This document shows positions 5,228 through 38,453 of a stretch of DNA of 40,175 nucleotides, one piece after another. Source of the stretch: Syntrophobacter sp. SbD2 (GTDB lineage Bacteria; Desulfobacterota; Binatia; UBA9968); assembly GCA_945889495.1 (NCBI GenBank), contig CAMDBU010000038.1:1-40175 (forward strand), written 5' to 3'. A model generated the notes under the pieces. That model was not told where the DNA came from and ran no database searches. It saw only the letters and a list, made by a program, of their open reading frames with translations. How positions within the stretch are numbered: position 1 is the first letter of the stretch; the number at the start of each line of letters is the position of its first letter. The position numbers were made by a program, and so were the translations under genes.

Positions 5228-6211
5228 CTACTTGATCACCCGATTCGCCCGCGAGAGAAATTCCGGCGACAGCGTTAGGCCGATCTGCTTGGCCGCTTTC
5301 AAGTTGATGACAAACTCAAACTTGGTCGCCTGCTGCACCGGCAAGTCAGCCGGTTTGGCGCCTTTTAAGATCTTGTCGACGTAGTGGGCGGCTTTGCGGT
5401 ACAGGTCGTCGAAGTCAGCCCCGTAAGACATGAGACCGCCGGCCTCCACAAAGTCATCCTGTGGGTAAATGGCTGGCAACCGGTATTTAACGGCAAGCTC
5501 GACGATGCGCTTTCTTTCGGCAAAAAAGCCGCGACCGGCGGTCGGCATAATCGCGCCCACCTGCTTCTGCTTGGCAGTTTTAAAGGCGCTCTCTAAACCT
5601 TTGGCGTTGGGTTGAGTCTCGATCTCCTCCAGTTTTAGCTTTAGTGCCACAGCCGCAGGTCTGATCTCTTTCAGCTGGTTTTCTATGCTTGCTCCCTCCG
5701 GCCGCAAAAGCGCGACTCGCGAGAGTCTGGGGACTGCGTCCTTGAGTATCTCTAGCCTTTTGCTATTTAGCTCGGTCCCTAAACTCGATAACCCGGTGAC
5801 ATTGCCTCCCGGCCGCCCCAGACTGGCAACTAGACCTTGACTCACAGGATCCCCAGCGGTCGCCATCACGATGGGGATGTTGGCGGTGGCGTTCTTGGCC
5901 GCTAACGCAGATGGCGTCCCAGCGACCACAATTAGATCAACCTTAAGACGAACCAAGTCAGCCGCAAGCTCAGGTACGCGCTCACGCTTTTGATCGGCAA
6001 ATCGGTACTCGACGGTGATGTTCTTTCCCTCAATCCAGCCAAGCTTGCTCAGTTCTTGCCGGAACGCCTCCACGAGGCCCGCGCTACTCGCAGTAGTGCT
6101 ATTATCCAGGAAACCTATGCGGAAGATTTTCCCCGCAGGCTGCGCGCGCGCGGCGGAACTAGAAATCACAATAGCCATTGCCATTAGCCAGAAGAGAATA
6201 GATTTCATCAT
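5228..6211 (-). CDS. PF04392-type ABC substrate-binding protein (copy 1)
   Basis: A 327-residue binding protein of the ABC_sub_bind (PF04392) family, related to TrpX-like periplasmic proteins. It has a signal peptide (ILFWLMAMAIVISSSAARAQ), then FRIGFLDNST, AAKNATANIPIVMATAGDPV, SLGRPGGNVTGLS and a C-terminal FVINLKAAKQIGLTLSPEFL. GGAGA lies upstream of the double ATG. It is closely related to 7023-8009 and more distantly to 9113-10102. In other bacteria this family is adjacent to permease and ATPase genes; here each copy stands alone beside toxin-antitoxin genes. Confidence 0.9.
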   Translation of the reverse strand: MMKSILFWLMAMAIVISSSAARAQPAGKIFRIGFLDNSTTASSAGLVEAFRQELSKLGWIEGKNITVEYRFADQKRERVPELAADLVRLKVDLIVVAGTPSALAAKNATANIPIVMATAGDPVSQGLVASLGRPGGNVTGLSSLGTELNSKRLEILKDAVPRLSRVALLRPEGASIENQLKEIRPAAVALKLKLEEIETQPNAKGLESAFKTAKQKQVGAIMPTAGRGFFAERKRIVELAVKYRLPAIYPQDDFVEAGGLMSYGADFDDLYRKAAHYVDKILKGAKPADLPVQQATKFEFVINLKAAKQIGLTLSPEFLSRANRVIK

Positions 6212-7022: not shown

Positions 7023-8009
7023 TCACTGAATCACCCGATTCGCCCGCGAGAGAAACTCCGGCGACAGTGTCAGGCCGATCAGCTTGGCCGCTTTCAGGTT
7101 GATGACAAACTCAAACTTGGTCGCCTGCTGCACCGGCAAGTCAGCCGGTTTAGCGCCTTTCAAAATCTTGTCCACGTAGTGGGCGGCCTTGTGGAACAGG
7201 TCATCGTAGTCCGCCCCGTAGGACATCAGGCCGCCCTCATCGACGAACTCCTTCTGGAAGTAAATAGCCGGCAACCGATGTTTGGCGGCAAGCTCGACGA
7301 TGCGCTTTCGTTCCGCGAAAAATTGGCGACTGGTGATCGTCATAATCGCGCCCACCTGCTTCTGCTTGGCGGTTTGAAAGGCGCTCTCTAAACCGTTGGC
7401 GCCGAATTGAGTCTCGATCTCCTCCAATTTTAGCTTCAGCGCCACAGCCGCGGGCCTGATCTCTTTCAGTTGGGATGACAGTATGCCGGTACCCTGCCCC
7501 CGCAGAAGTCCAACTCGAACAAGCTTGGGGATCGCGTCCTTGAGCACCTCTAGTCTTTTGCTGTTTAGTTCGGTCCCTAAATTCGACAGCCCAGTGACAT
7601 TGCCTCCTGGCCGCGCCAGACTGGCAACCAGACCTGAACCTACCGGGTCCCCAGCGTTCGCCATCACGATGGGAATGGTTGTAGTCGCTTTTTTCGCGGC
7701 TAACGCTGGCGGTTCGCCTGTGGTCACGATCAAATCAACCTTGAGACGAACCAAGTCCGCCGCAAGCTCAGGTAACCGCTCACGGTTTTGCTCTGAAAAT
7801 CGGTACTCGATGGTGAGATTCTTTCCCTCAATCCAGCCAAGTTTGCTCAGCTCTTGCCGGAAGGCCTCCGAGAGGACGGCGATACCAGAAGCATTGCTAT
7901 TATCCAGGAAGCCGATGCGAAAGATTTTTCCCGCCTGCTGCGCGTGGGCGGCGGGGGCAGAAATCAGAATGGCAGTTGCCAGGAACCGAAAGAGAATGGT
8001 TTTCATCAT
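7023..8009 (-). CDS. PF04392-type ABC substrate-binding protein (copy 2)
   Basis: A 328-residue close paralogue of the SBP at 5228-6211. It shares the signal-peptide start (MMKTILFRFLATAILI), KLGWIEGKNLTIEYRFSEQN, SLARPGGNVTGLSNLGTEL and FVINLKAAKLIGLTLSPEFL. GGAGA precedes the ATG. The high identity of long stretches, with differences spread through the gene, suggests an older tandem duplication rather than a recent copy. Periplasmic location is predicted; ligand unknown. Confidence 0.9.
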   Translation of the reverse strand: MMKTILFRFLATAILISAPAAHAQQAGKIFRIGFLDNSNASGIAVLSEAFRQELSKLGWIEGKNLTIEYRFSEQNRERLPELAADLVRLKVDLIVTTGEPPALAAKKATTTIPIVMANAGDPVGSGLVASLARPGGNVTGLSNLGTELNSKRLEVLKDAIPKLVRVGLLRGQGTGILSSQLKEIRPAAVALKLKLEEIETQFGANGLESAFQTAKQKQVGAIMTITSRQFFAERKRIVELAAKHRLPAIYFQKEFVDEGGLMSYGADYDDLFHKAAHYVDKILKGAKPADLPVQQATKFEFVINLKAAKLIGLTLSPEFLSRANRVIQ

Positions 8010-9112: not shown

Positions 9113-10102
9113 TCACTTGATTATCCTAGTCGCCCGCGCCAGCACCTCCGGCGCAATCGTCGCGCCGATTTGCTTCGCGGTTTTCAGGTTGATAATGAAT
9201 TCAAATTTCATCGGTTGTTCCACCGGCAGTTCGGCGGGTGTTGTTCCCTTCAAGATTCTATCCACAAAATAAGCGACGCGCCGGTAGATGTCCGCTTCGT
9301 CCGCCCCGTAGGACATGAACCCGCCGGCCTCTACAGCCTCTCTTCTGCCGTATATCGACGGTAACCGGCTCTTTAACGCCAAGCCCGCGATCCGTTTTCG
9401 GTTAGCATTCATCAGCCCACCGGTGGGCACGTAGAGTCCGTCCGGGCGTTGCTTGTTTAGACCTGCAAAGATCTTCTCAAAGTCGTCCGCAGTCCGCACC
9501 TCCCACGGCTGAAGAGTCAACTTCAGCGCACGTGCTGCGGGCTGAACCTCTTTCAGCTCGACTACGTGGTACGTATTTGCCGGATCGTGGAGAATCGCGA
9601 CACGAGCAAGTTTGGGAACGGCTTCTTTGAGCAGGTCCAGCCGCTTACCACCTAGTTCTATGAGAAGGTTTGTAAGGCCGGTGACATTGCCGCCGGGACG
9701 GGCAAGGCTGTCGATCAGGCCTGCCCTGACTGGATCGCCCCCACCGCCCACCATAACGATAGGAATCGTCTTGGTCGCATTCATGGCTGTCTGGACCGCT
9801 CCTGCCGCGCCTGATACCACGATGATATCAACCTTGAGACGCAACAGCTCTGCCGCAAGCTCAGGAGTCCGACCGCGCTTGCTGTCCGCATATCGGTACT
9901 CCGTTGCGATGTTCTGTCCCTCCATGTATCCACGCTCGCGCAGAGCCAACCGAATTCCCTCGGCACGGGCGGAATCACTAGCTGCATCGCCCGTCGATAG
10001 ATACCCTATCCGAGGGACTTTCTTCGGCTGCTGCGCGGCGGCGGGAAAGCTGTGCGCCAAGAGCAGAGCGCATAGAGCTAGTCTAGTGAATTTTTTGTGC
10101 AT
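9113..10102 (-). CDS. PF04392-type ABC substrate-binding protein (copy 3)
   Basis: A 329-residue member of the same family, more diverged: signal peptide (LALCALLLAHSFPAAAQQPK), VPRIGYLSTGDAAS, MNATKTIPIVMVGGGGDPV, SLARPGGNVTGLTNLLIEL and the C-terminal IAPEVLARATRIIK. The three gene stubs at 4319, 6265 and 8070 resemble this copy's C-terminus more than copies 1 and 2, so this branch was once more numerous here. Start at 10102 lacks a strong ribosome-binding site. Confidence 0.9.
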   Translation of the reverse strand: MHKKFTRLALCALLLAHSFPAAAQQPKKVPRIGYLSTGDAASDSARAEGIRLALRERGYMEGQNIATEYRYADSKRGRTPELAAELLRLKVDIIVVSGAAGAVQTAMNATKTIPIVMVGGGGDPVRAGLIDSLARPGGNVTGLTNLLIELGGKRLDLLKEAVPKLARVAILHDPANTYHVVELKEVQPAARALKLTLQPWEVRTADDFEKIFAGLNKQRPDGLYVPTGGLMNANRKRIAGLALKSRLPSIYGRREAVEAGGFMSYGADEADIYRRVAYFVDRILKGTTPAELPVEQPMKFEFIINLKTAKQIGATIAPEVLARATRIIK

Positions 10103-12856: not shown

Positions 12857-13942
12857 ATGGCACGTAACGGGATTCCGGTCGTCGATGGCGACGGGCATGT
12901 GATGGAGGATTGGGATGCGCTCTTGCAGTATATGCCGGAGCCTTACATTAAAAGCGGCCGCTTCAAGGGGCGGATATTTCCGCCGCTCGATCATCTCCAT
13001 GGGGCGACGCTCTATACTCTAGTGCCCGGCGCGTTTCGGCCGGTGCGCGAGGATGGCTGGCTGGAGTTTATGGAAGATGTCGGCATTGAGCGCGCGGTGC
13101 TTTATTCCACCGGCGGTTTGGCCTTCGGCAAAGTGATCACCCGCGAATTCGCCGTCGACGTCGCGCGGGCTTGGAACAACTGGTTCGCCGATACTTACTT
13201 AAAAAAGAGCCCGCGCTTCCAAGGGCTGGCTCTGGTGCCGCTGCAAGAGCCGGCGGAGGCGATCAAGGAAATGCGCCGGGCGGTCAAGGAATTAAACTTC
13301 TGCGGCGTCATGCTGCCGTCCACCGGCTTCAAGGGCCACTTGGGCGACAAGGAATACTGGCCGTTCTACGAAGAGGCGAGTAAGCTCGGTTGCTGCATTG
13401 GCATCCATGGCGGCGCCCATGAAGGCTTGGGCATGGATTGGTTGACGCCCTACGCGCCGATCAACGGCTTGGGCCACGCCGTCGGCCAGATGGTGGCGTT
13501 CGCCGGCATCGTCTTCAACGGCATCTTCGAAAAATTTCCCAATGTCCGCATCGGCTTTATGGAAGCCGGCGTGTCATGGCTGCAAACCTGCCTAGAGCGC
13601 TTCGACCGCGGCTGGGAAACCCATATCCAATACGATCCGCGCGGCGAATATATCCAGCTCAAGGCCGGCGAAAAGGTCAGCGACTACATCCGCCGCCAAG
13701 CCGAAGCCGGACGGTTTTTCGTCGGCTGCGAAGGGACGGAAAAAGCGCTGCACCATCTGATCGAAGCGGTGGGCAACAAGCCGTTCATGTTCTCCAGCGA
13801 CTTCCCGCACGAAGTCAACAACGAATACTGCAAGCATGAGATCGACGAGATCGTCGAGAACGAGCATCTCAGCGACGCCGACAAGCACGCGGTGCTGCAC
13901 GGCAACGCCGAGCGGTTTTATGGGTTGAAGCCGTTGGGGTGA
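12857..13942 (+). CDS. Amidohydrolase family 2 (PF04909) protein
   Basis: A 361-residue amidohydrolase with a strong GAGGAGG ribosome-binding site eight bases before the ATG. Active-site blocks: VVDGDGHVMEDWD, CIGIHGGAHEGLG, IGFMEAGVSWLQTCLERFD and MFSSDFPHEVNNEYCKHEID. It opens a plus-strand operon: amidohydrolase, SBP (44-base gap), UGSC selenoprotein (15-base gap) and SBP (one-base overlap). This suggests hydrolysis or decarboxylation of a compound captured by the two binding proteins and processed by a selenium redox step. The substrate is unknown. Confidence 0.92.
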   Translation: MARNGIPVVDGDGHVMEDWDALLQYMPEPYIKSGRFKGRIFPPLDHLHGATLYTLVPGAFRPVREDGWLEFMEDVGIERAVLYSTGGLAFGKVITREFAVDVARAWNNWFADTYLKKSPRFQGLALVPLQEPAEAIKEMRRAVKELNFCGVMLPSTGFKGHLGDKEYWPFYEEASKLGCCIGIHGGAHEGLGMDWLTPYAPINGLGHAVGQMVAFAGIVFNGIFEKFPNVRIGFMEAGVSWLQTCLERFDRGWETHIQYDPRGEYIQLKAGEKVSDYIRRQAEAGRFFVGCEGTEKALHHLIEAVGNKPFMFSSDFPHEVNNEYCKHEIDEIVENEHLSDADKHAVLHGNAERFYGLKPLG

Positions 13943-13985: not shown

Positions 13986-14984
13986 ATGAGCCAGGAACGA
14001 ACCCAACCGGTTATCCGGATTTGTTTCCTGGTCATCGCTGTGCTGTTGCCGATTGGTGCCGCGGCGATCGCTCAAGACAAGATCAAGCTGCCGGTTAGCG
14101 TCTCGTCGAAGACTCTGGGCTACAGTCCTCTCTGGGTGGCGCAGAAGCAGGGCTTCTTCGCTGCCAATGGTCTGGACGTCGATTTGATTCTGGTGCGCAG
14201 CGGCGATCTCGCCTTGATGGCACTGCTCGGCGGTTCGGTGCATATTTCCGGCGGCAGCACGGCGGGCATCAGCGCCATCGAAAAGGGCGTCGATCTAGCT
14301 TTCATCGGTGGCGCGATCAATGGCCTGACGCATATGATCCTTGGCGGCAAGAATTATAAATCCTTCGACGATCTGCGCGGCGCGACCATCGGCGCGTCGG
14401 GCTTGACCGGCAGCACGACCATCGTGCTCAAGCGCATCCTCAAGGGAAAAGGCTTGGAGTATCCGCGCGACTATAAGCTCTTAAACGTTGGCGCATCGGC
14501 GCCGGCGTTTCTCGCGTTGAGCTCGAACCAGATCGCTGCGTCGATCATCGCCGTGCCGCTGGCGTTTGAAGCCGCGGACTTGGGCTACAACATACTCGCC
14601 CGGGTGGTGGACACGGTGCCGAGCTACCAGCTCGGCGCGCTGGCGCTGAAACGTTCCTGGGGCGAAAAGAATCGGCCGGTGGCGGTGCGCTTCATGAAGT
14701 CCATGGTGCAAGCCCATCGTTGGCTGTACAGCCAGCGCGACGCGGCGGTGAGTTTTCTCGCCAAGGAAATGCAGTTGAGCGCCAGCCATGCGCGGCGCGG
14801 TTGGGAATATTACACCGAGAAAAGGATTTGGCATCCGGAGGCGGACTTGAGCCACGAAGGCTTACGCATGGTGATCCAGATCATGGCCGAGGAAGGGCAG
14901 CTCCGTCCACCCCTGCCGGCGCCGCAGAAATTTGTCGACCAAAGCTACTTGAAAGAGGCTTTGCAGGAATTGGCCAGCCGCTAA
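13986..14984 (+). CDS. NMT1/SsuA-type ABC substrate-binding protein
   Basis: A 332-residue binding protein with a signal peptide (ICFLVIAVLLPIGAAAIAQD) followed by SVSSKTLGYSPLWVAQKQGF, NGLDVDLILVRSGD, an FDDLRGATIGASGLTGSTT central segment and a C-terminal VDQSYLKEALQELA. It is not a close paralogue of the SBPs in the 167-3216 operon. It lies between the amidohydrolase and the UGSC selenoprotein gene, and ends 15 bases before the latter's likely ATG. Likely periplasmic; no transporter partners in the window. Confidence 0.9.
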   Translation: MSQERTQPVIRICFLVIAVLLPIGAAAIAQDKIKLPVSVSSKTLGYSPLWVAQKQGFFAANGLDVDLILVRSGDLALMALLGGSVHISGGSTAGISAIEKGVDLAFIGGAINGLTHMILGGKNYKSFDDLRGATIGASGLTGSTTIVLKRILKGKGLEYPRDYKLLNVGASAPAFLALSSNQIAASIIAVPLAFEAADLGYNILARVVDTVPSYQLGALALKRSWGEKNRPVAVRFMKSMVQAHRWLYSQRDAAVSFLAKEMQLSASHARRGWEYYTEKRIWHPEADLSHEGLRMVIQIMAEEGQLRPPLPAPQKFVDQSYLKEALQELASR

Positions 14985-14999
14985 ATGGGAGTGCGATCT

Positions 15000-16625
15000 A
15001 TGAGCGAATCGTCCATCGAAGTCGTCAATCCATTGGGTGTGGCGCGCCAGCAAGTAAGCAAACTGGCGCCGCGCCGCCACGACAGCTTGGCCGGCCGACG
15101 CATCGGCTTGCTCGATAACAATAAGCCCAACGCCGATAAGTTTTTGCAATTTGTCGGCGAGCTTCTTCGGCTGCGTCATCCAGACATTCAACTGGTCGCC
15201 AAGCGCAAGATGACGCGCATGGAGTCGGATGGTTTGGCGGAATTCGCCAACGATTGCGATGTCGTCGTCAACGCCTTTGCCGATTGAGGCTCTTGCACGT
15301 CGTGGAGTGTCCACGACTCAGTGAAACTGGAAGGGGCCGGGATCGCCACCGTGACGGTGGTGAGCAGCGAGTTTTGGAACTTGGCGCTGGCCGAGTGCCA
15401 GGCGCGCGGTGTGAAAGAGCTGCCGCTGGTCCAGGTGCCGCATCCGGTGGGGACCATCGGGTTCGATGCTTTGCGCGCGGTGGCTGAGTCGGCGGTGGAT
15501 GCGATCGCCGCTAAGTTGGTTAGCGGCAGTGGTACGAATTCAGCCTCTGATACCGCTTCGTTAGCGATCGGCGAAGGCGGCACCGCCGCAACTCTTTCCG
15601 TTCCCAGCGATCCCGGCGAGATGTTCAGCTATTTTTTCGCGCGCGGTTGGACCGATGGCTTGCCGGTGCTGCCGCCGACTATGGCGGCGGTTGAAAAAAT
15701 GCTCGCCGCCGGAGGGCAGAAAGCCGACGCAGTATTGGGCGTGATTCCGCCGTTGAACGGCGTCGCCACGGCGGAGAAGGTGGCGGCCAACGCGGTGCTG
15801 GCGGGCTGCTTGCCGGAATATTTTCCGCTGGTGCTAGCGGCGCTGCGCGCCATGACCCGGCCGGGCTACAATCTCGATGGCTTACAGACCACCACGGGAA
15901 ACATCGCGCCGCTGGCGATCGTCAACGGGCCTTGCCGCAATTCTTTATCCATCAACTACGGCGCCAACGTGCTCGGCCAGGGCTGGCGCGCCAATGCCAC
16001 CATCGGTCGGGCGATCCGTTTGGTCATGACCAACATCGGCGGTGCGCGGCCGGGGAGCTTCGATAAATCGACCATGGGGCAGCCGGCGAAATACACATTT
16101 TGTTTTGGCGAGAACGAAGAAAAAAGTCCCTGGGCGCCGTTTCATGTCGAGCGCGGCTTGGCGCGCGACTGCGATGCGCTGCATCTGTTCGGCGCCAGCG
16201 GAGTTTACAGCGCCGTCGATATGGCGAGCCAGACGGCAACCGGGCTGCTCAAGACCTTTGCGCTGACGATGACCGGCGGATTGGCCAGCGGCGTGACATC
16301 GACCGAAGTGCTGTGGGCGATCTGTCCCGAGCATGCGGCGATTTTCGCGCGCGACGGATTCTCTAAAGAGAAATTGCGCGCCGAGCTGTTCGCGCTAGCG
16401 CGGGTGCCTTACGACAAGATCGCCGATGAAAACTTAGAACTGCTCGCCAAGCGGCGGCCGCAGTGGTTCAAGCCCGGCGGTGCGCGCGAAGTCGGCGTGG
16501 TCGACCGGCCGGAAGATATCTGGATCGTCGTCGCCGGCGGCGCCGGCGCCAAGTCGGCCTATATCCCAGGGCGCACCGGGACGCGTATGCAGACGGTGGC
16601 GGTGGCAGGAGGGGGAGTGGAGTGA
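15000..16625 (+). CDS. UGSC-family selenoprotein (in-frame UGA = Sec96)
   Basis: One 541-residue gene read through an in-frame TGA at 15285-15287. The flanking codons give VVVNAFAD-U-GSCTSWSVHD, the defining U-G-S-C motif of the UGSC selenoprotein family, so residue 96 is very likely selenocysteine and C99 its redox partner. A perfect 8-bp hairpin follows (15299-15317). Residues 1 to about 195 form the UGSC domain. From about 200 on is a second conserved domain (GWTDGLPVLPPT, VAANAVLAGCLPEYFPLVL, RANATIGRAIRLVMTNIGG) that I do not recognise by name. The ATG at 15000 has GGGAG eight bases upstream; ATG at 14985 is possible. No signal peptide, so cytoplasmic. Probable thiol/selenol redox protein; reaction unknown. 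Confidence 0.92.
15285..15317 (+). promoter_or_regulatory. UGA codon and bacterial SECIS-like hairpin (UGSC gene)
   Basis: The recoded TGA (15285-15287) is followed by GTCGTGGA-GTG-TCCACGAC (15299-15317): eight perfect base pairs closing a GUG triloop whose first G is 20 nt past the UGA. Known bacterial SECIS elements place a small apical loop with an early G roughly 16-37 nt after the UGA for SelB binding. The fit is direct, and the hairpin is inside the coding sequence. Confidence 0.85.
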
Positions 16626-16657
16626 TGGAGAAATGGAGTAATGGAGTGATGGGTCGA
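16618..16657. repeat. Octamer tandem repeat across a gene junction (5 units)
   Basis: Five consecutive units: TGGAGTGA, TGGAGAAA, TGGAGTAA, TGGAGTGA, TGGGTCGA. The array contains the selenoprotein stop (16623-16625), the next gene's start (16625) and its first ten codons. It creates an ATG every eight bases in rotating frames; those at 16625 and 16649 share the SBP frame. Confidence 0.75.
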
Positions 16658-17641
16658 ATTCGGCAGAACGCGGTGTCGCTACTGTTTTTCTTCGTATCGT
16701 TAGTGCCGACGTTGGTCAACGCGCAGATGAAGTCGATCATCATCGGCGAAGGGGTGCGCGGCGCGATGTATTTGCCGGCCTATATCGCCGAGGAAAAAGG
16801 TTTCTTCAAGCGCCGCGAGTTGGATACCCGCATGGTGACCTTTAGCCGCAGCAACGATATCAATGCCTTGGTGTCGGGCGATATACAGTTCGATCTGACG
16901 GCGCCGGATAAGGTGGTTCACAGCGCGCTGGGCGGTTTCCCGGTGAAGATGGTGATGGGCACGGCGCGCGGGCTCAATCTCGCCTTGACCGTCCATCCGT
17001 CGATCCGTTCGGCGGCGGATCTCAAGGGCAAGTCGGTGGCGATCACCGGCTTTTCCGGCCTTCCTTACACCGGGCTGCTGCTCTGTCTGCGCGAGCTCGG
17101 TATGACCAAGGAGCAGGTCGTGCCGCTCAACATCGGCGGCAAGGCCGCGCGTTTCGAAGCCTTGCTCGGCAACCGCGTGCCGGCGGCGATCCTCGATCCG
17201 CCCTACACCACGCTGGCGGCCAAGGAAGGCTACCGCTTGCTGGTCGATCTGGCGCCCCTCGATGTGCCGTACTTGCGCAATATCGTCGCGGTGTCGGAGA
17301 AAACCTTGCGCGACGATTCGCGCACCGTGGCGCGCTTCGTCGCCGGCCTGGCCGAGGGCATGCAGTTCTACCGCAACAAGGCGAACAAAGATGACAGCAT
17401 GAAGATCCTGGCCAAGTATTTGCGCCTGCCGCTGGAGAAACATCGCGCCATGATCGAAGAGGGCTACGAAACCTACCGCGACATGATGCTGAAAAAGCCC
17501 TATGCCGATGCCGCGTCGATGAAAATCTTGCTGGAGATCATCGCCGAGTCCAACCCCAAGGCGAAGTCGGTGAATCTGAGCGCACTTGTCGATTCGTCAT
17601 TTGTCGAACGCTTGGATCGCGAAGGGATGTTTGACCGCTAG
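16625..17641 (+). CDS. NMT1/SsuA-type ABC substrate-binding protein
   Basis: A 338-residue binding protein: signal peptide (NAVSLLFFFVSLVPTLVNAQ), GEGVRGAMYLPAYIAEEKGF, RRELDTRMVTFSRSN, DLKGKSVAITGFSGLPYTG and a C-terminal VDSSFVERLDREGMF. The ATG at 16625 overlaps the selenoprotein TGA by one base (TGATG), so translation is coupled to it. ATG at 16649, still in frame, would remove eight residues and leave a better signal-peptide N-region. Last gene of the amidohydrolase-SBP-UGSC-SBP operon. Confidence 0.9.
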   Translation: MEKWSNGVMGRIRQNAVSLLFFFVSLVPTLVNAQMKSIIIGEGVRGAMYLPAYIAEEKGFFKRRELDTRMVTFSRSNDINALVSGDIQFDLTAPDKVVHSALGGFPVKMVMGTARGLNLALTVHPSIRSAADLKGKSVAITGFSGLPYTGLLLCLRELGMTKEQVVPLNIGGKAARFEALLGNRVPAAILDPPYTTLAAKEGYRLLVDLAPLDVPYLRNIVAVSEKTLRDDSRTVARFVAGLAEGMQFYRNKANKDDSMKILAKYLRLPLEKHRAMIEEGYETYRDMMLKKPYADAASMKILLEIIAESNPKAKSVNLSALVDSSFVERLDREGMFDR

Positions 17642-33794: not shown

Positions 33795-34670
33795 TCACGG
33801 CATGTTGACGCCGGTGGGCGCGAAGTAGTCTGACTTGGCCGTGCGCGTTGCTCGCCAGGGGAGTTCGACACGGCTGCCGTCCGGCAGGTCGACGCGCGCG
33901 GTGCCTTCGATGCGTTCGCCGCGCACTTTGCCGGTGAACTCATGGCGGGTGAGGCCCATGCCTTCGAGGGTGATGGCGAGATTGAAAGAGATATTGTCGC
34001 CGGTCAGCTTTACGTCCGTCAGCACTTCGCGGTTCGTGCTGGCGCGGACGGCGCCTTCGGCGGCTTGAAATTGTTGGTCCAAGACCGCCGCGTAGTTAAC
34101 CCGCTGGCCGGCGAGAGTGAATTCCCAGCTCCAGTTGCCGGTGATTTTCGCCGGCACGATCCACAGGTGGACCGACGGGTTGTCGCCTTCGACTTTGTCG
34201 GCGGGCCAAGTGCCCAAGTCCCAGGTGCTGGTCAATATTCGCGTTCCCGGTCTAGCTCTTTCGAGAATCGTCGGCCGGAGTAGACGCATGAGTTCGGGAA
34301 ACAGCCACATGGTGATCACGGTGGCTTCGCGCAGTTCGGCGTCGAAGGCGTTTTGATGCAGGAACTTGACCCGGTCGGCGACGCCCTGGGCTTGGGCGAC
34401 GCCGTTGGATTCGGCGACCAGCTTGGGATCGATGTCGACGCCCCAGCCGCGTAGTTTGGAATTCAACTTCGCCGCGGTGAGGACGATCAGGCCGTTGCCG
34501 GAACCCAGGTCGACGATCACGTCGTCGTCGCGCAGGTCGGCGAGATTGAGCAGGCGCGCGACGCTTTCCGGCGTGCTCGCTTGGAAAAACGAAAAGCGTT
34601 CTTGGGCCGACACGCTGGCGGCGCTGAGTAGCGCGATGGTAAAGATGAGTATGCGAATGGTCTTGGGCAT
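33795..34670 (-). CDS. Methyltransferase-domain protein with signal peptide
   Basis: A 291-residue protein with an N-terminal signal peptide (ILIFTIALLSAASVSAQE), then a class I SAM-binding motif (VIVDLGSGNGLIVLTAAKL), an acidic second motif (WGVDIDPKLV) and VITMWLFPELMRLL. The C-terminal ~130 residues are beta-rich (FNLAITLEGMGLTRHEFTGK). The start at 34670 has GGAGAG six bases away. A SAM-dependent enzyme in the periplasm is unexpected because SAM is cytoplasmic; either the leader is a membrane anchor or the domain has another role. Confidence 0.85.
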   Translation of the reverse strand: MPKTIRILIFTIALLSAASVSAQERFSFFQASTPESVARLLNLADLRDDDVIVDLGSGNGLIVLTAAKLNSKLRGWGVDIDPKLVAESNGVAQAQGVADRVKFLHQNAFDAELREATVITMWLFPELMRLLRPTILERARPGTRILTSTWDLGTWPADKVEGDNPSVHLWIVPAKITGNWSWEFTLAGQRVNYAAVLDQQFQAAEGAVRASTNREVLTDVKLTGDNISFNLAITLEGMGLTRHEFTGKVRGERIEGTARVDLPDGSRVELPWRATRTAKSDYFAPTGVNMP

Positions 34671-34724
34671 GTTTCTCTCCATTGCGGTTTCGATTGAAGT
34701 AACCAATTCTTTGGCGCTGGTCAA

Positions 34725-34753
34725 TTGACAACCGCTCTACGCCCAAATACATC
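34725..34753 (+). promoter_or_regulatory. Candidate promoter for the SBP-grd unit
   Basis: TTGACA (34725-34730), 17 bases, TACATC (34748-34753), 26 bases before the SBP ATG. The -10 box is weaker than at the other sites. Confidence 0.4.
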
Positions 34754-34779
34754 TCGTGCTGTCTAGGAGTGAATTGGCT

Positions 34780-35754
34780 ATGACGCTGCGAATTCTAATC
34801 GGTGTCGTGATCGTTCTTGGGCTAAGCGCTGGCGATGTTGGCGCGCAGGCGCGCAAGGTCCGCGTCGCCATGCCGGGTTACACTATCGCCGGGATTTCGT
34901 TTCTTACCGCCAAACTCAACGGCTACTACGCCGCCGAAGGTTTGGACGCCGAGCTCATCGCCATGCGCGCGCCGACGGCGAATTTAGCCGTCTTGAGCGG
35001 CAGCGTGGAATTTTCCACCGTGCCGTTGGTGGGCTTGAACACGGCGCTGCGCGGCGGCGCGTTGAAGATCATCATGGTCCACTTCGACAAGCCGCAGCAT
35101 GTGCTCTACGTCAAAAACGACGTGCCGAACTTAAAATCATTGCGCGGCAAAAAAATCGCCGTCTCCGGCCCCGGTGTGATCGACGATGTGCTGCTCCGCG
35201 AGGTGCTGGGTAATAACGGCATCGATGCCAACAAGGAGCTGACCATCCTCAGCATGGGCGCGGCCGATACCCGGGTGACCAGCTTGATCAGCGGCGCGGT
35301 AGAGGGCGCCATGATCATCGCGCCGTTTACGTTTACCGCCAAGGATGCCGGCTTTCGCGAACTAGTGGTCTTCCGCGATCAGGGACTGCTCCTGCCCAGC
35401 GGCGGTGTCGCGGTGCGGGACGACACCTTGAAAAACGAGCCGGCATTGGTGGAGCGCTTCATGCGCGCGTCTATGATGGGATTCATCCACTCGCGCGACC
35501 ATCGCGCTGGCGCGATCGGCGTGTTGGCGAAAAGTTTGAAAATCGACGAAGCGATCGCCGCCAAGGTTTACGATTCGTCGCGTCCGACCATGACTGCGGA
35601 CGGTACGATCAATGACGATGCGCAAAGGAAAATGGCTGCCTTCGTCGCCAAATCTTCCGGCCTCAAAGAAGTGGTCGCGGCCGACAAGGTGTTCGATTTT
35701 TCCGTCGTGCGCAAAGCCAACGCGGCGCTGCTCGCCAAGGGCTGGCAGCCGTGA
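34780..35754 (+). CDS. NMT1/SsuA-type ABC substrate-binding protein
   Basis: A 324-residue binding protein: signal peptide (LRILIGVVIVLGLSAGDVGA), VAMPGYTIAGISFLTAKLNG, AEGLDAELIAMRAPTANLAV, SLRGKKIAVSGPGVIDDVLL and VRDDTLKNEPALVERFMRAS. The ATG at 34780 has AGGAG ten bases upstream; GTG at 34756 is possible. It is the first gene of a unit with the two Grd-like genes, so its ligand is probably the Grd-like enzyme's substrate or a relative. No transporter genes accompany it. Confidence 0.9.
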   Translation: MTLRILIGVVIVLGLSAGDVGAQARKVRVAMPGYTIAGISFLTAKLNGYYAAEGLDAELIAMRAPTANLAVLSGSVEFSTVPLVGLNTALRGGALKIIMVHFDKPQHVLYVKNDVPNLKSLRGKKIAVSGPGVIDDVLLREVLGNNGIDANKELTILSMGAADTRVTSLISGAVEGAMIIAPFTFTAKDAGFRELVVFRDQGLLLPSGGVAVRDDTLKNEPALVERFMRASMMGFIHSRDHRAGAIGVLAKSLKIDEAIAAKVYDSSRPTMTADGTINDDAQRKMAAFVAKSSGLKEVVAADKVFDFSVVRKANAALLAKGWQP

Positions 35755-35761
35755 CGGCTAA

Positions 35762-35791
35762 TTGACAGGCGCGCTCGAACGGCACTAAAGT
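35762..35791 (+). promoter_or_regulatory. Candidate internal promoter before the GrdE-like gene
   Basis: TTGACA (35762-35767), 18 bases, TAAAGT (35786-35791), 18 bases before the ATG at 35810. It lies in the 55-base gap after the SBP gene, so the selenoprotein pair may be expressed separately from the SBP. Confidence 0.45.
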
Positions 35792-35809
35792 CTTCTGCGA
35801 GAGATCACC

Positions 35810-37084
35810 ATGCAACTGACACTGGCCTATCACCCGGTAACTTCGATTCGCTTCGGCGCTAAATTGGCGTTGGACGGCGCCGCGCTGACGGTTGACCAAG
35901 AGGAGCTGCGCGCCCTGGTCCTCGAAGACCCGCTCATTGAAGCGGTCGACTTCGTCATCGCCGCACCCGGCGACAGCCTGCGCGCCGGGCCGATCTTCGA
36001 CATCGTCGAGCCGCGCGCCAAAGCGCCGGGCGGCAGTCCGGACTGGCCAGGCATTCTCGGCGCGCCGCAGACCGCCGGCAGCGGCACCACCCATGTGCTT
36101 CGCGGCGCGACGGTCACCGCGGTGCGCGAAGATTCCTCCGGCGATTCGCGCGGCGCGACTGGTTATATATTGGAAATGAGCGGCGCGCCGGCGGCCGGTT
36201 CGCCCTACGGCAAGCTCTGCCATCTGATCGTCGTGCCCCATTCGCAACCGAACATCGCCGCGGCGGCGCGCCAGCGTGCTTACCGCTTGGCGCAGCTGAA
36301 AATCGCCGTGCGCCTGGCCCAAGCGGCATTCTCGGTTGCGGTGGCGAGTTCCGAAGTGTTCGACAACTCTGACGCCGAGGCGCGGCCCGGACTGCCGCGC
36401 ATCGCCTACATCGGTCAAATCTTTTCGCGCCAGCGCAAACCGCAGGCCGACGAGCATATTCTCTACGGCGCCGACACCGATGGCATGCTGCCGACGCTGC
36501 TCCATCCCAACGAGTGGTTGGACGGCGCACTGGTGCCGTCCTATCATGCGTCGATCGGCGGCGCGGAGACTTATTTCTATCAAAATCATCCGGTGACGCT
36601 AGAACTTTATCGGCGTCATCGAGCGGGCGAGATCAACTTCGTCGGTTCGGTGGCGACCATCGCGTCGGCGAATAATTTCGACCGCGAGCGCAACACCCGC
36701 TTCGCCGCCCATTTGGCCAAGTGGGCGCTGCGCGCCGATGGCGCGGTGCTGACCAAGTTCGGCGGCGGCGTGCCGCATACCGATCTATCCGAGACCGCGC
36801 GCTTGCTCGAAACCATGGGCGTTAAAACCGCCGTGCAAGTGACCGACGCGGCGCGCGATCACAAGGTCGAGTCGGCGCTCTTGTTCAATTTTCCCGAAGT
36901 CGACGCCATCGTTTGCATCGGCGGCAACGACACCCAGTGGAAGCTGCCGCAGGTCGAGCGTGTCATCGCCGCCAACAGCGGCTTGGCGGAAATCCTCGCC
37001 GGCCCGTTGGACATCGAATCCCATAACGTCATCGGCGTCGCCAATCAGCAGGGCGCGTCGCGCTTGCGGTCTGTCGTTTATTAA
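35810..37084 (+). CDS. GrdE-like alpha/beta subunit of reductase component B
   Basis: A 424-residue protein of the glycine/sarcosine/betaine reductase component B alpha/beta family (GrdE/GrdG/PrdA type). Recognisable blocks: FIGA-like VTSIRFGAKLALDGAALTVD, GYILEMSGAPA, PRIAYIGQIFSRQRKP, TLLHPNEWLDGALV (HPNE 232-235), YFYQNHPVTLELYRRH and TKFGGGVPHTDLSETARLLE. In clostridial enzymes this precursor is cleaved at a Cys near position 242 to form a pyruvoyl group. Here that region reads PSYHASIGGAETY, and the only cysteines are at 137 and about 367. It pairs with the downstream selenoprotein. Confidence 0.88.
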   Translation: MQLTLAYHPVTSIRFGAKLALDGAALTVDQEELRALVLEDPLIEAVDFVIAAPGDSLRAGPIFDIVEPRAKAPGGSPDWPGILGAPQTAGSGTTHVLRGATVTAVREDSSGDSRGATGYILEMSGAPAAGSPYGKLCHLIVVPHSQPNIAAAARQRAYRLAQLKIAVRLAQAAFSVAVASSEVFDNSDAEARPGLPRIAYIGQIFSRQRKPQADEHILYGADTDGMLPTLLHPNEWLDGALVPSYHASIGGAETYFYQNHPVTLELYRRHRAGEINFVGSVATIASANNFDRERNTRFAAHLAKWALRADGAVLTKFGGGVPHTDLSETARLLETMGVKTAVQVTDAARDHKVESALLFNFPEVDAIVCIGGNDTQWKLPQVERVIAANSGLAEILAGPLDIESHNVIGVANQQGASRLRSVVY

Positions 37085-37086
37085 GA

Positions 37087-37163
37087 AGGCGTGAGGCATG
37101 AGGCGCGAGGCTTGAGTAAATCTGGAATCCCAACTCGTGCCTCACGCCTCGTGCCTCACGCCT
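37087..37163. repeat. Inverted repeat of GGCGTGAGGC type between grd-like genes
   Basis: Left arm AGGCGTGAGGCATGAGGCGC... (37087-37111), right arm ...GCCTCACGCCT ending at 37163, inverted with a 22-base spacer. It fills the gap between the GrdE-like and GrdB-like genes and ends eight bases before the latter's AAGGAG site. Confidence 0.7.
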
Positions 37164-37181
37164 ATTATTAAAGGAGTTGCC

Positions 37182-38453
37182 ATGCGAGTCGTACATTACT
37201 TGAATCAATTTTTCGGCGGCCTTGGCGGCGAAGAACATGCCGGTAGCGGGCTCGAAGCGCGCGACGGCGCGGTGGGGCCGGGAAAGTTGCTGGAGCAGCT
37301 GCTCGGCGCGGACTGCCAAGTGGTGACGACGTTGGTGTGCGGTGACAACTACGCCGTGGAAAATCAGGAAGCGGTCACCGCGGCGGTGTTGGAGAAAGTT
37401 CGCGCTGCGCAGGCCGATCTGTTCGTCGCTGGACCCTGTTTCATGGCCGGGCGTTATGGCATGGCGGCGGGCGCGCTCTGCGCCGCGGTGCAAAGTAAAT
37501 TAAATATTCCCGCGGTCACTGCCATGGCGGGAGAAAATCCTGGCGCCGATCTCTATCGCGAGTTTCTCTATATCGTCGATTCCGGTGACAATGGCGCCAA
37601 GATGCGCGAAGTGTTGGCGCGTATGGCGGACTTGGCGCAGAAACTTTTGCGCCATGAGACGATCGGCAGCCCCAAGGACGAAGGCTACCTCAGCCGTGGT
37701 TTGATTCGTGACGAGTTTGTCGAGCGCACGTCCGGCCAGCGGCTTGTGGACATGATCGTCAGGAAAGTCACAGGCGAAGCTTTCGACACTGAGATGCGGC
37801 CGACCCAGTTTGCCCCGGTGCCCAAGCCGGCAGCGATCGCCGATCTGACCAAAGCTAAGTTCTTACTGGTCACCGACGGCGGCTTGGTGCCGGTGGGCAA
37901 TCCGGACAAGATTCAAGGCTCGGCGGCGACCCGCTGGGGCGTTTACAGCATTAAAAATTGCCAGGGTTTGGATGGCAAGGATTACGAGATTTCCCATGGC
38001 GGCTACGATCCGCAGTTCGTGCGCCAAGATCCTGACCGGCTGGTGCCGCTCGACGTCATGCGCGATCTCGAGCGCGAAGGCGTCATCGGCTCGCTGCACA
38101 ACGAATTTATTTCCACGTCCGGGCTGTCCAATCCGTTGTCCAACACCCGGCGCATGGGACGCGAGATGGCGGCCAAGGCCAAGGAGCTGGGCATCGACGC
38201 GATCATCCTGACATCCACTTGAGGGACCAGCACTCGCAGCGGCGCTGCGATCACGACGGAGTTGGAAAAAGCTGGCATCCCGACGGTGCAAATCACCGCG
38301 GCGCTACCGGTGGCGAAAATGGTCGGCGCCAACCGGCTGGTGTTGGGCAACGGCATCGTCCACGTCGTCGGCGATGCCAAGGTCTCGGCCGAGGACGAGA
38401 AAAAAGTCCGCCGCCGCCTGGTCGAACAGGCGCTGGCCGCCATGCAAAAGTAA
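37182..38453 (+). CDS. GrdB-like selenoprotein (in-frame UGA = Sec347)
   Basis: A 423-residue protein read through an in-frame TGA at 38220-38222. Surrounding codons give DAIILTST-U-GTSTRSGAAI, matching the selenocysteine site of glycine/sarcosine/betaine reductase selenoprotein B (clostridial form STUGTCTRCGA). Length and the Sec position agree with GrdB/GrdF (about 436 residues, Sec near 350). Other blocks: VVHYLNQFFGGLGGEEHAG, VTDGGLVPVGNPDKIQ and NEFISTSGLSNPLSNTRRMG. AAGGAG lies five bases before the ATG. A perfect 7-bp hairpin follows the UGA. With the GrdE-like subunit it should bind a substrate amine and perform reductive C-N (or similar) cleavage; substrate unknown. Confidence 0.93.
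38220..38250 (+). promoter_or_regulatory. UGA codon and bacterial SECIS-like hairpin (GrdB-like gene)
   Basis: TGA (38220-38222) followed by TCGCAGC-GGC-GCTGCGA (38234-38250): seven perfect pairs and a GGC triloop whose first G is 19 nt past the UGA. Spacing and shape closely match the hairpin in the UGSC gene (loop at +20). Confidence 0.82.

Follow-up and report, generated by a model that had tools for sequence, protein, structure and literature searches.

A selenocysteine-decoded two-domain UGSC protein and its possible remote relationship to the GrdB/PrdB reductases

Introduction

Does the UGA triplet that appears to cut a gene of Syntrophobacter sp. SbD2 in two encode selenocysteine (Sec), and which reaction might the complete protein carry out? 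The gene lies in a stretch of 40,175 nucleotides (nt; assembly GCA_945889495.1, contig CAMDBU010000038.1, positions 1 to 40,175 of the forward strand), in the following called the window, and a sequence-only reading had described it as a two-domain selenoprotein of the UGSC family with a hairpin behind the UGA. Here, we report that it is, with near certainty, a selenoprotein gene, and that its UGSC domain appears to be remotely related to the C-terminal, Sec-bearing domain of GrdB and PrdB, by which we mean the subunits of the glycine, sarcosine, betaine and D-proline reductases.

The UGSC family is already catalogued (NF041046, PF24696), and the fusion, too, has a precedent. According to PMC2398784, the fusion of UGSC to a domain named Unknown_1 was reported in 2008, and UGSC was among the more abundant selenoproteins of aquatic metagenomes (255 Sec sequences, Table 2 therein). 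A review from 2026 names UGSC and describes the functions of such selenoproteins as still largely uncharacterised (PMC13188914), and PMC5330540 refers to other reports of UGSC-motif selenoproteins from three genomes with a tRNA-Sec that reads UAG. A link of UGSC to GrdB/PrdB or to a neighbour resembling thioredoxin reductase (TrxR) was not found in the accessible portion of the openly licensed literature, and it may be in print elsewhere.

The UGA lies within one conserved reading frame

With the UGA read as Sec, the gene extends from 15000 to 16625 on the forward strand (+) and encodes 541 amino acids (aa), as judged from the translation of the frame and from family models. Its start codon ATG at 15000 (+), with a GGGAG noticed by eye at 14987-14991, the UGA at 15285..15287 (+) and the terminal stop TGA at 16623-16625 (+) share one frame (coding 15000-16622), and translation across the UGA gives DVVVNAFAD-U-GSCTSWSVHDS, exactly the continuous frame that had been proposed. 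Sec is residue 96 according to the translation and the homologs and is followed by a cysteine at +3 (UxxC), the UGSC motif being formed by residues 96-99. As had also been foreseen, a standard gene caller splits the gene, since under genetic code table 11 the fragment ending at the UGA has 95 aa from ATG 15000 or 100 aa from ATG 14985, and the second fragment has 434 aa from GTG 15321.

Membership in the UGSC family, for which the sequence-only reading had proposed a check against family models, is borne out by both curated cut-offs. The Pfam model PF24696 matches residues 7-173 across the UGA (150.1 bits against a cut-off of 25, E 8.9e-44) and also each side of the UGA separately (2.4e-15 and 2.9e-19), and the NCBIfam equivalog NF041046 reaches 131.7 bits against a cut-off of 125. 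The domain covers 15018..15521 (+). UGSC is present in 28 of the 35 genomes of the order, including that of the window (5.64 Mb, 239 contigs), which has three UGSC genes with one in-frame TGA apiece. Among the 71 matches in these genomes, 69 have a single in-frame TGA, the remaining two being fragments in which the Sec position is not included. Over all loci collected and the window, 114 UGSC-domain hits were obtained (107 Sec forms, six Cys forms and one truncated before the site); one locus proved to be the window again and was dropped, leaving 113 hits with 106 Sec forms. Sec or Cys stands at the site in all 112 hits that span it (106 Sec, 6 Cys, window included), and all 106 Sec sequences have the cysteine at +3, so homologs with a stop and no conservation behind it were not seen. 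By their record titles, the carriers are alphaproteobacteria, actinobacteria and relatives of the window titled Deltaproteobacteria or Candidatus Binatia, and the Cys form occurs in haloarchaea.

The machinery for Sec insertion, whose absence from the genome the earlier reading had named as a possible refutation, was found completely, with a tRNA-Sec of 73.1 bits, which is over the Rfam cut-off, and with selA, selB and selD at 614, 411 and 377 bits in family models. The three sel genes are contiguous on another contig of the same assembly (our contig C26 of genome G000, 33826-38141), and selD itself contains an in-frame TGA. In 13 hand-picked genomes, selB exceeds its cut-off in seven of eight with a Sec form versus none of five with a Cys form.

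Codon choice points to selection on a hairpin behind the UGA

Folding and a comparative codon test identify a hairpin at 15299..15317 (+) that resembles a Sec insertion sequence (SECIS). Its first base is the 12th nt after the UGA, its arms (15299-15306 and 15310-15317) form eight Watson-Crick pairs around the loop GUG (15307-15309), and it spans the codons TCG TGG AGT GTC CAC GAC as well as the last base of the preceding ACG; position and pairing are thus as had been described. Of the 1119 TGA triplets in the window, counting both strands, 7 are followed by an 8-bp hairpin that starts 7-20 nt behind them. For the codon test, the 106 Sec sequences were collapsed to 66 unique 48-nt stretches, because a few loci probably represent the same genome twice (e.g. 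L035 and L115), and expected numbers were derived from how the UGSC and partner domains of these loci use their codons. Of 61 serine codons extending into the loop, 60 are AGT (5.3 expected), which points to selection on the RNA; the serine in the stem is encoded by TCG in 60 of 61 against 16.3 expected, and on average 7.2 of the 8 stem pairs are kept, compared to 5.0 in synonymous redraws. In one Sec form (L100), the tryptophan of the stem is replaced by cysteine and the pair is preserved via a synonymous valine codon. The commonest apical loops among 107 Sec sequences are GTT (64), GTG (25) and GTA (11). Taken from the sequences, this pattern points to RNA-level selection on the hairpin codons.

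Several observations weigh against this interpretation and against Sec decoding. The stability of the hairpin is unremarkable (51 nt, z = -1.08, with 30 of 200 shuffles folding at least equally well), and an Rfam SECIS match is absent from the window at the gathering score and from 15240-15380 at E up to 10. Moreover, the 66 sequences are related to each other and the codon expectation ignores this kinship. The six Cys forms retain 7, 7, 6, 5, 6 and 6 of the 8 pairs, which means that much of the stem is dictated by the protein sequence. AGT occurs at the loop position in none of them and the stem serine is TCC in four of the six, and they are a partial rather than a clean synonymous control, because the residue at the loop position is Cys or Leu and not Ser. 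Furthermore, 105 of the 107 Sec sequences, and hence not all, have an apical loop at the expected distance, and one metagenome-assembled genome with a Sec form (that behind L020) has no selB over the cut-off. Taking both sides together, we read the gene in the window as encoding a true selenoprotein in which UGSC is fused to its customary partner domain, and we have hardly any doubt about the Sec part of this statement.

Besides the usual form, the collected loci contain a divergent UGSC branch with other codons, in which L018 and L122-L124 read USTC and carry the partner domain in frame, and L121 reads UGSC-TSG. The hairpins of L018, L121 and L122 differ.

The partner domain and the predicted structure

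The part of the protein behind the UGSC domain forms a large second domain (15627..16577, +), and the two-domain organisation that had been claimed is borne out by the family match and the predicted model. We label the second domain Unknown_1 by analogy with PMC2398784, with whose Unknown_1 it may be identical. It is unmatched in Pfam and NCBIfam, where the C-terminal ~320 residues of 28 diverse members gave only isolated single-member hits (best E 0.0077), and its profile gave two unrelated weak matches among PDB sequences at E <= 10 (best E 1.5). In many relatives it is encoded by a separate adjacent gene. Within the order, the partner domain lies no more than 1 kb away and on the same strand for 65 of 71 UGSC matches, and the converse holds for 67 of 75 partner-domain matches; the 6 of 71 and 8 of 75 matches that lack the counterpart, contig ends included, count against a strict coupling. 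When loci were found via UGSC alone, the partner was fused to it or beside it on the same strand in 32 of 32. UGSC and the partner domain thus nearly always travel together, either fused or adjacent.

An AlphaFold2 model of the window protein was built from 55 sequences (mean pLDDT, the predicted local distance difference test, 91.7). In the predicted UGSC domain, strand and helix alternate five times, and Sec96 is placed after the third strand, between the strand 88-94 and the helix 97-112. We read this arrangement as Rossmann- or flavodoxin-like, as far as a model can tell. A thioredoxin fold, which PMC2398784 presents as likely for UGSC, was rejected, since the predicted fivefold beta-alpha order with Sec after the third strand differs from it. 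Foldseek and VIA returned generic matches of the whole model to the UGSC part, the best of these being a designed protein (Z 11.8) and a chain of the methyl-coenzyme M reductase activation complex (Z 11.0). A PDB sequence search with the UGSC profile yielded two unrelated weak matches at E <= 10. The C-terminal domain modelled alone is also predicted with high confidence (pLDDT 91.8) and has no clear structural match by Foldseek (best E 4.8e-3, probability 0.54) or VIA (best Z 7.2), although this is no proof of a new fold.

The UGSC domain resembles the Sec-bearing domain of GrdB and PrdB

A profile of 29 UGSC domains was compared with other profiles by hhalign. Against the Sec-bearing C-terminus of the GrdB-like proteins of the order, it gave a probability of 95.8% (single-comparison E 6.8e-9), against the PrdB-like selenoproteins of the phylum 86.4% and against both pooled 95.0%, in each case with Sec aligned on Sec. 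The PrdB-like set consists of 28 of 30 phylum loci from a search in which none of the matches reached the PrdB cut-off. As controls, reversed GrdB gave 1.6% with UGSC and 40 column shuffles at most 1.5%. The NCBIfam searches go in the same direction: the model for glycine reductase selenoprotein B, TIGR01917, is the commonest non-UGSC model matched by the 29 domains (12 of 29 at E <= 10, best 5.8e-4), the PrdB model TIGR04483 is matched by three at E <= 10 (best 0.07), and TIGR01918, NF040795 and NF040794 by two to three members each. The UGSC motif is itself found in some GrdB-like proteins of the order (L129 and L137).

Four results weigh against this relationship. Among 29 profiles of neighbouring genes used as controls, some of which are wrong-strand open reading frames owing to crude gene calling, an amidohydrolase profile reached 71.4% with UGSC over 35 columns, the remaining ones giving 2.3% or less; because of this one control, we regard 95.8% as strong and not as overwhelming. 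With the Sec motif masked in GrdB, the probability drops to 81.5%. PF07355 is unmatched by the window UGSC protein (E <= 0.001) and by the 29 UGSC domains (E <= 1). This model does not cover the Sec domain, since its positions 2-347 of 347 fall before the UGA in the GrdB-like protein that is also encoded in the window. Finally, of the GrdB motif UxxCxxC, given in PMC13188914, only half is present in the window protein, which has UxxC and a tryptophan at +6. On balance, remote homology of the UGSC domain to the Sec-bearing C-terminal domain of GrdB/PrdB is supported by the profiles. Membership in GrdB itself was rejected on the missing PF07355 match, and a relationship of the C-terminal domain to UGSC or to GrdB was rejected as well (hhalign 0.2% each).

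The protein can thus be placed relative to three known groups. It has in common with the catalogued UGSC family both passed cut-offs, the motif, the occurrence of Sec forms beside Cys homologs and the hairpin right after the UGA, and differs by its fusion to the ~320-residue domain, relatives being either fused or split. With selenoprotein B of the GrdB, GrdF, GrdH and FarB type (PF07355, TIGR01917, TIGR01918), it appears to share the Sec domain, aligned Sec on Sec, whereas the PF07355 part and the second cysteine at +6 are missing and the partner domain is another one. PrdB (TIGR04483) and the PrdB-like selenoproteins likewise align Sec on Sec and have the UxxC motif, whereas the upstream part of PrdB is unlike that of the window protein.

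Gene neighbourhood

In the window, the gene is directly preceded by an NMT1/THI5-like substrate-binding protein (13986..14984, +) and directly followed by another one (16649..17641, +); further upstream, and possibly in the same cluster, lies an Amidohydrolase_2 protein (12857..13942, +), all three identified by family search. The downstream binding protein is 62% identical to the one beside a fused gene in the closest relative (L019, titled Deltaproteobacteria), in which three UGSC units alternate with binding proteins. The adjoining binding protein offers a candidate route to the substrate of UGSC. Putative substrate-binding protein genes are numerous in the window (5228-6211, 7023-8009 and 9113-10102 on the reverse strand; starting at 13986, 16649, 26191 and 34756 on the forward strand), of which those at 13986, 16649 and 26191 are NMT1/THI5-like by family search and the others were judged by eye.

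Neighbourhoods were compared in the best 80 of 209 loci from a search with the two-domain query, most of them titled Alphaproteobacteria, with neighbour genes from a crude gene caller, so that some clusters are wrong-strand open reading frames. A TrxR-like flavoprotein occurs in 45 of the 80 loci and, by reading of the neighbourhood table, directly upstream of UGSC in 42; all 45 contain a CxxC motif. The cluster of TrxR-like gene, UGSC and Unknown_1 is also present in the cultured relatives Reyranella massiliensis and R. soli (L059 and L088). One representative scored 180.8 bits, below the TrxR equivalog cut-off of 343.45, and we thus call this neighbour TrxR-like and not TrxR. SelA and SelB, identified by family search, are the two genes preceding the TrxR-like gene in L032, and their clusters also precede it in L050 and L071; the SelB cluster is present in 9 of the 80 loci. 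No TrxR-like gene stands beside UGSC in the cluster of the window, which counts against the reaction proposed below. Single hand-picked loci contain CoA-transferase III, HMGL-like, acyl-CoA dehydrogenase, MmgE/PrpD and amidohydrolase neighbours. In four of the 80 loci (L034, L037, L039, L079), another gene cluster is found near UGSC, whose tested member (L039, 1025-3289) carries PF20254, the N,N-dimethylformamidase beta-like C-terminal domain. PF20254 near UGSC is a possible hint at substrates.

A proposed reaction and its alternatives

The GrdB/PrdB link, the near-constant partner, the TrxR-like neighbour and the adjoining binding protein turn the function of this protein into a testable hypothesis. 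The description "function unknown" given by the sequence-only reading for the UGSC family can now be narrowed via the remote relationship to GrdB/PrdB, from which it follows that related chemistry may be used. We propose a Sec-decoded two-domain UGSC protein that would work as a GrdB-like reductase, using its selenolate on a small compound imported into the cell, a proposal that as a whole we consider to have an even chance of being right. The small organic substrate would be delivered by the substrate-binding proteins encoded on either side of the gene and held against the C-terminal domain, where Sec96, as a selenolate, would attack an activated carbon-heteroatom bond in it. The product would then leave, and Sec would be released as a selenide-sulfide with Cys99 of the UxxC motif, to be re-reduced by the TrxR-type flavoprotein, which lies beside the gene in many alphaproteobacteria, or by a general thiol donor. 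More tentatively, and with the odds slightly against it in our view, UGSC and its partner may constitute another class of GrdB-type selenium reductases, a compact one with a different substrate-holding domain and, in some lineages, TrxR-like recycling. GrdB/PrdB chemistry is known mainly from anaerobes, and several UGSC carriers are, as we assume, aerobes. If such a class exists, one of the commonest aquatic selenoprotein families would reductively break down a small imported organic compound.

The UxxC motif and the TrxR-like neighbour can also be read as the redox centre and the reductase of a Sec-dependent thiol-disulfide or peroxide oxidoreductase, in which the C-terminal domain would serve for docking of a protein or peroxide. 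UxxC is indeed common among the redox selenoproteins in Table 2 of PMC2398784, and CxxC is found in each of the 45 TrxR-like members. The predicted order of strands and helices with Sec after the third strand is not that of thioredoxin, the sequence profiles favour GrdB/PrdB, and the neighbours tested in the window are binding proteins and an amidohydrolase, and we therefore regard such an oxidoreductase as unlikely, at roughly one chance in four. Somewhat less probable still is a GrdB-related domain that performs no net reduction and acts together with the C-terminal domain as a selenolate-dependent transferase, a dehalogenase or an acyl or alkyl carrier. FarB, a relative of GrdB, is proposed in PMC10838667 to attack a C-F bond, and the CoA-transferase III, HMGL-like, acyl-CoA dehydrogenase, MmgE/PrpD and amidohydrolase neighbours of the hand-picked loci hint at acid catabolism, whereas the TrxR-like partner argues for net reduction. 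A true stop, be it a pseudogene, a frameshift, a sequencing error or read-through with an ordinary amino acid, would fit the missing Rfam match and the ordinary hairpin stability, but was rejected as extremely improbable in view of the order-wide in-frame TGA and the codon choice inside the hairpin, next to the complete Sec machinery of the genome.

A second selenoprotein gene in the window

The GrdB-like gene used above is a second selenoprotein gene of the window (37182-38453, +; UGA 38220-38222), and a PDB sequence search with its product gave two unrelated weak matches at E <= 1 and no solved relative. It is preceded by a GrdE-like gene (35810-37084). Its Sec region reads UGTSTRSG with a serine at the position of the cysteine of GrdB, and a 7-bp hairpin follows soon after the UGA; PMC10838667 describes a loss of conserved cysteine for FarB, too. 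GrdB-like matches occur in 28 of 34 genomes of the order, in 27 of them over the cut-off, and these genes are strongly multiplied, with up to 20 matches per genome in order-mates such as G025.
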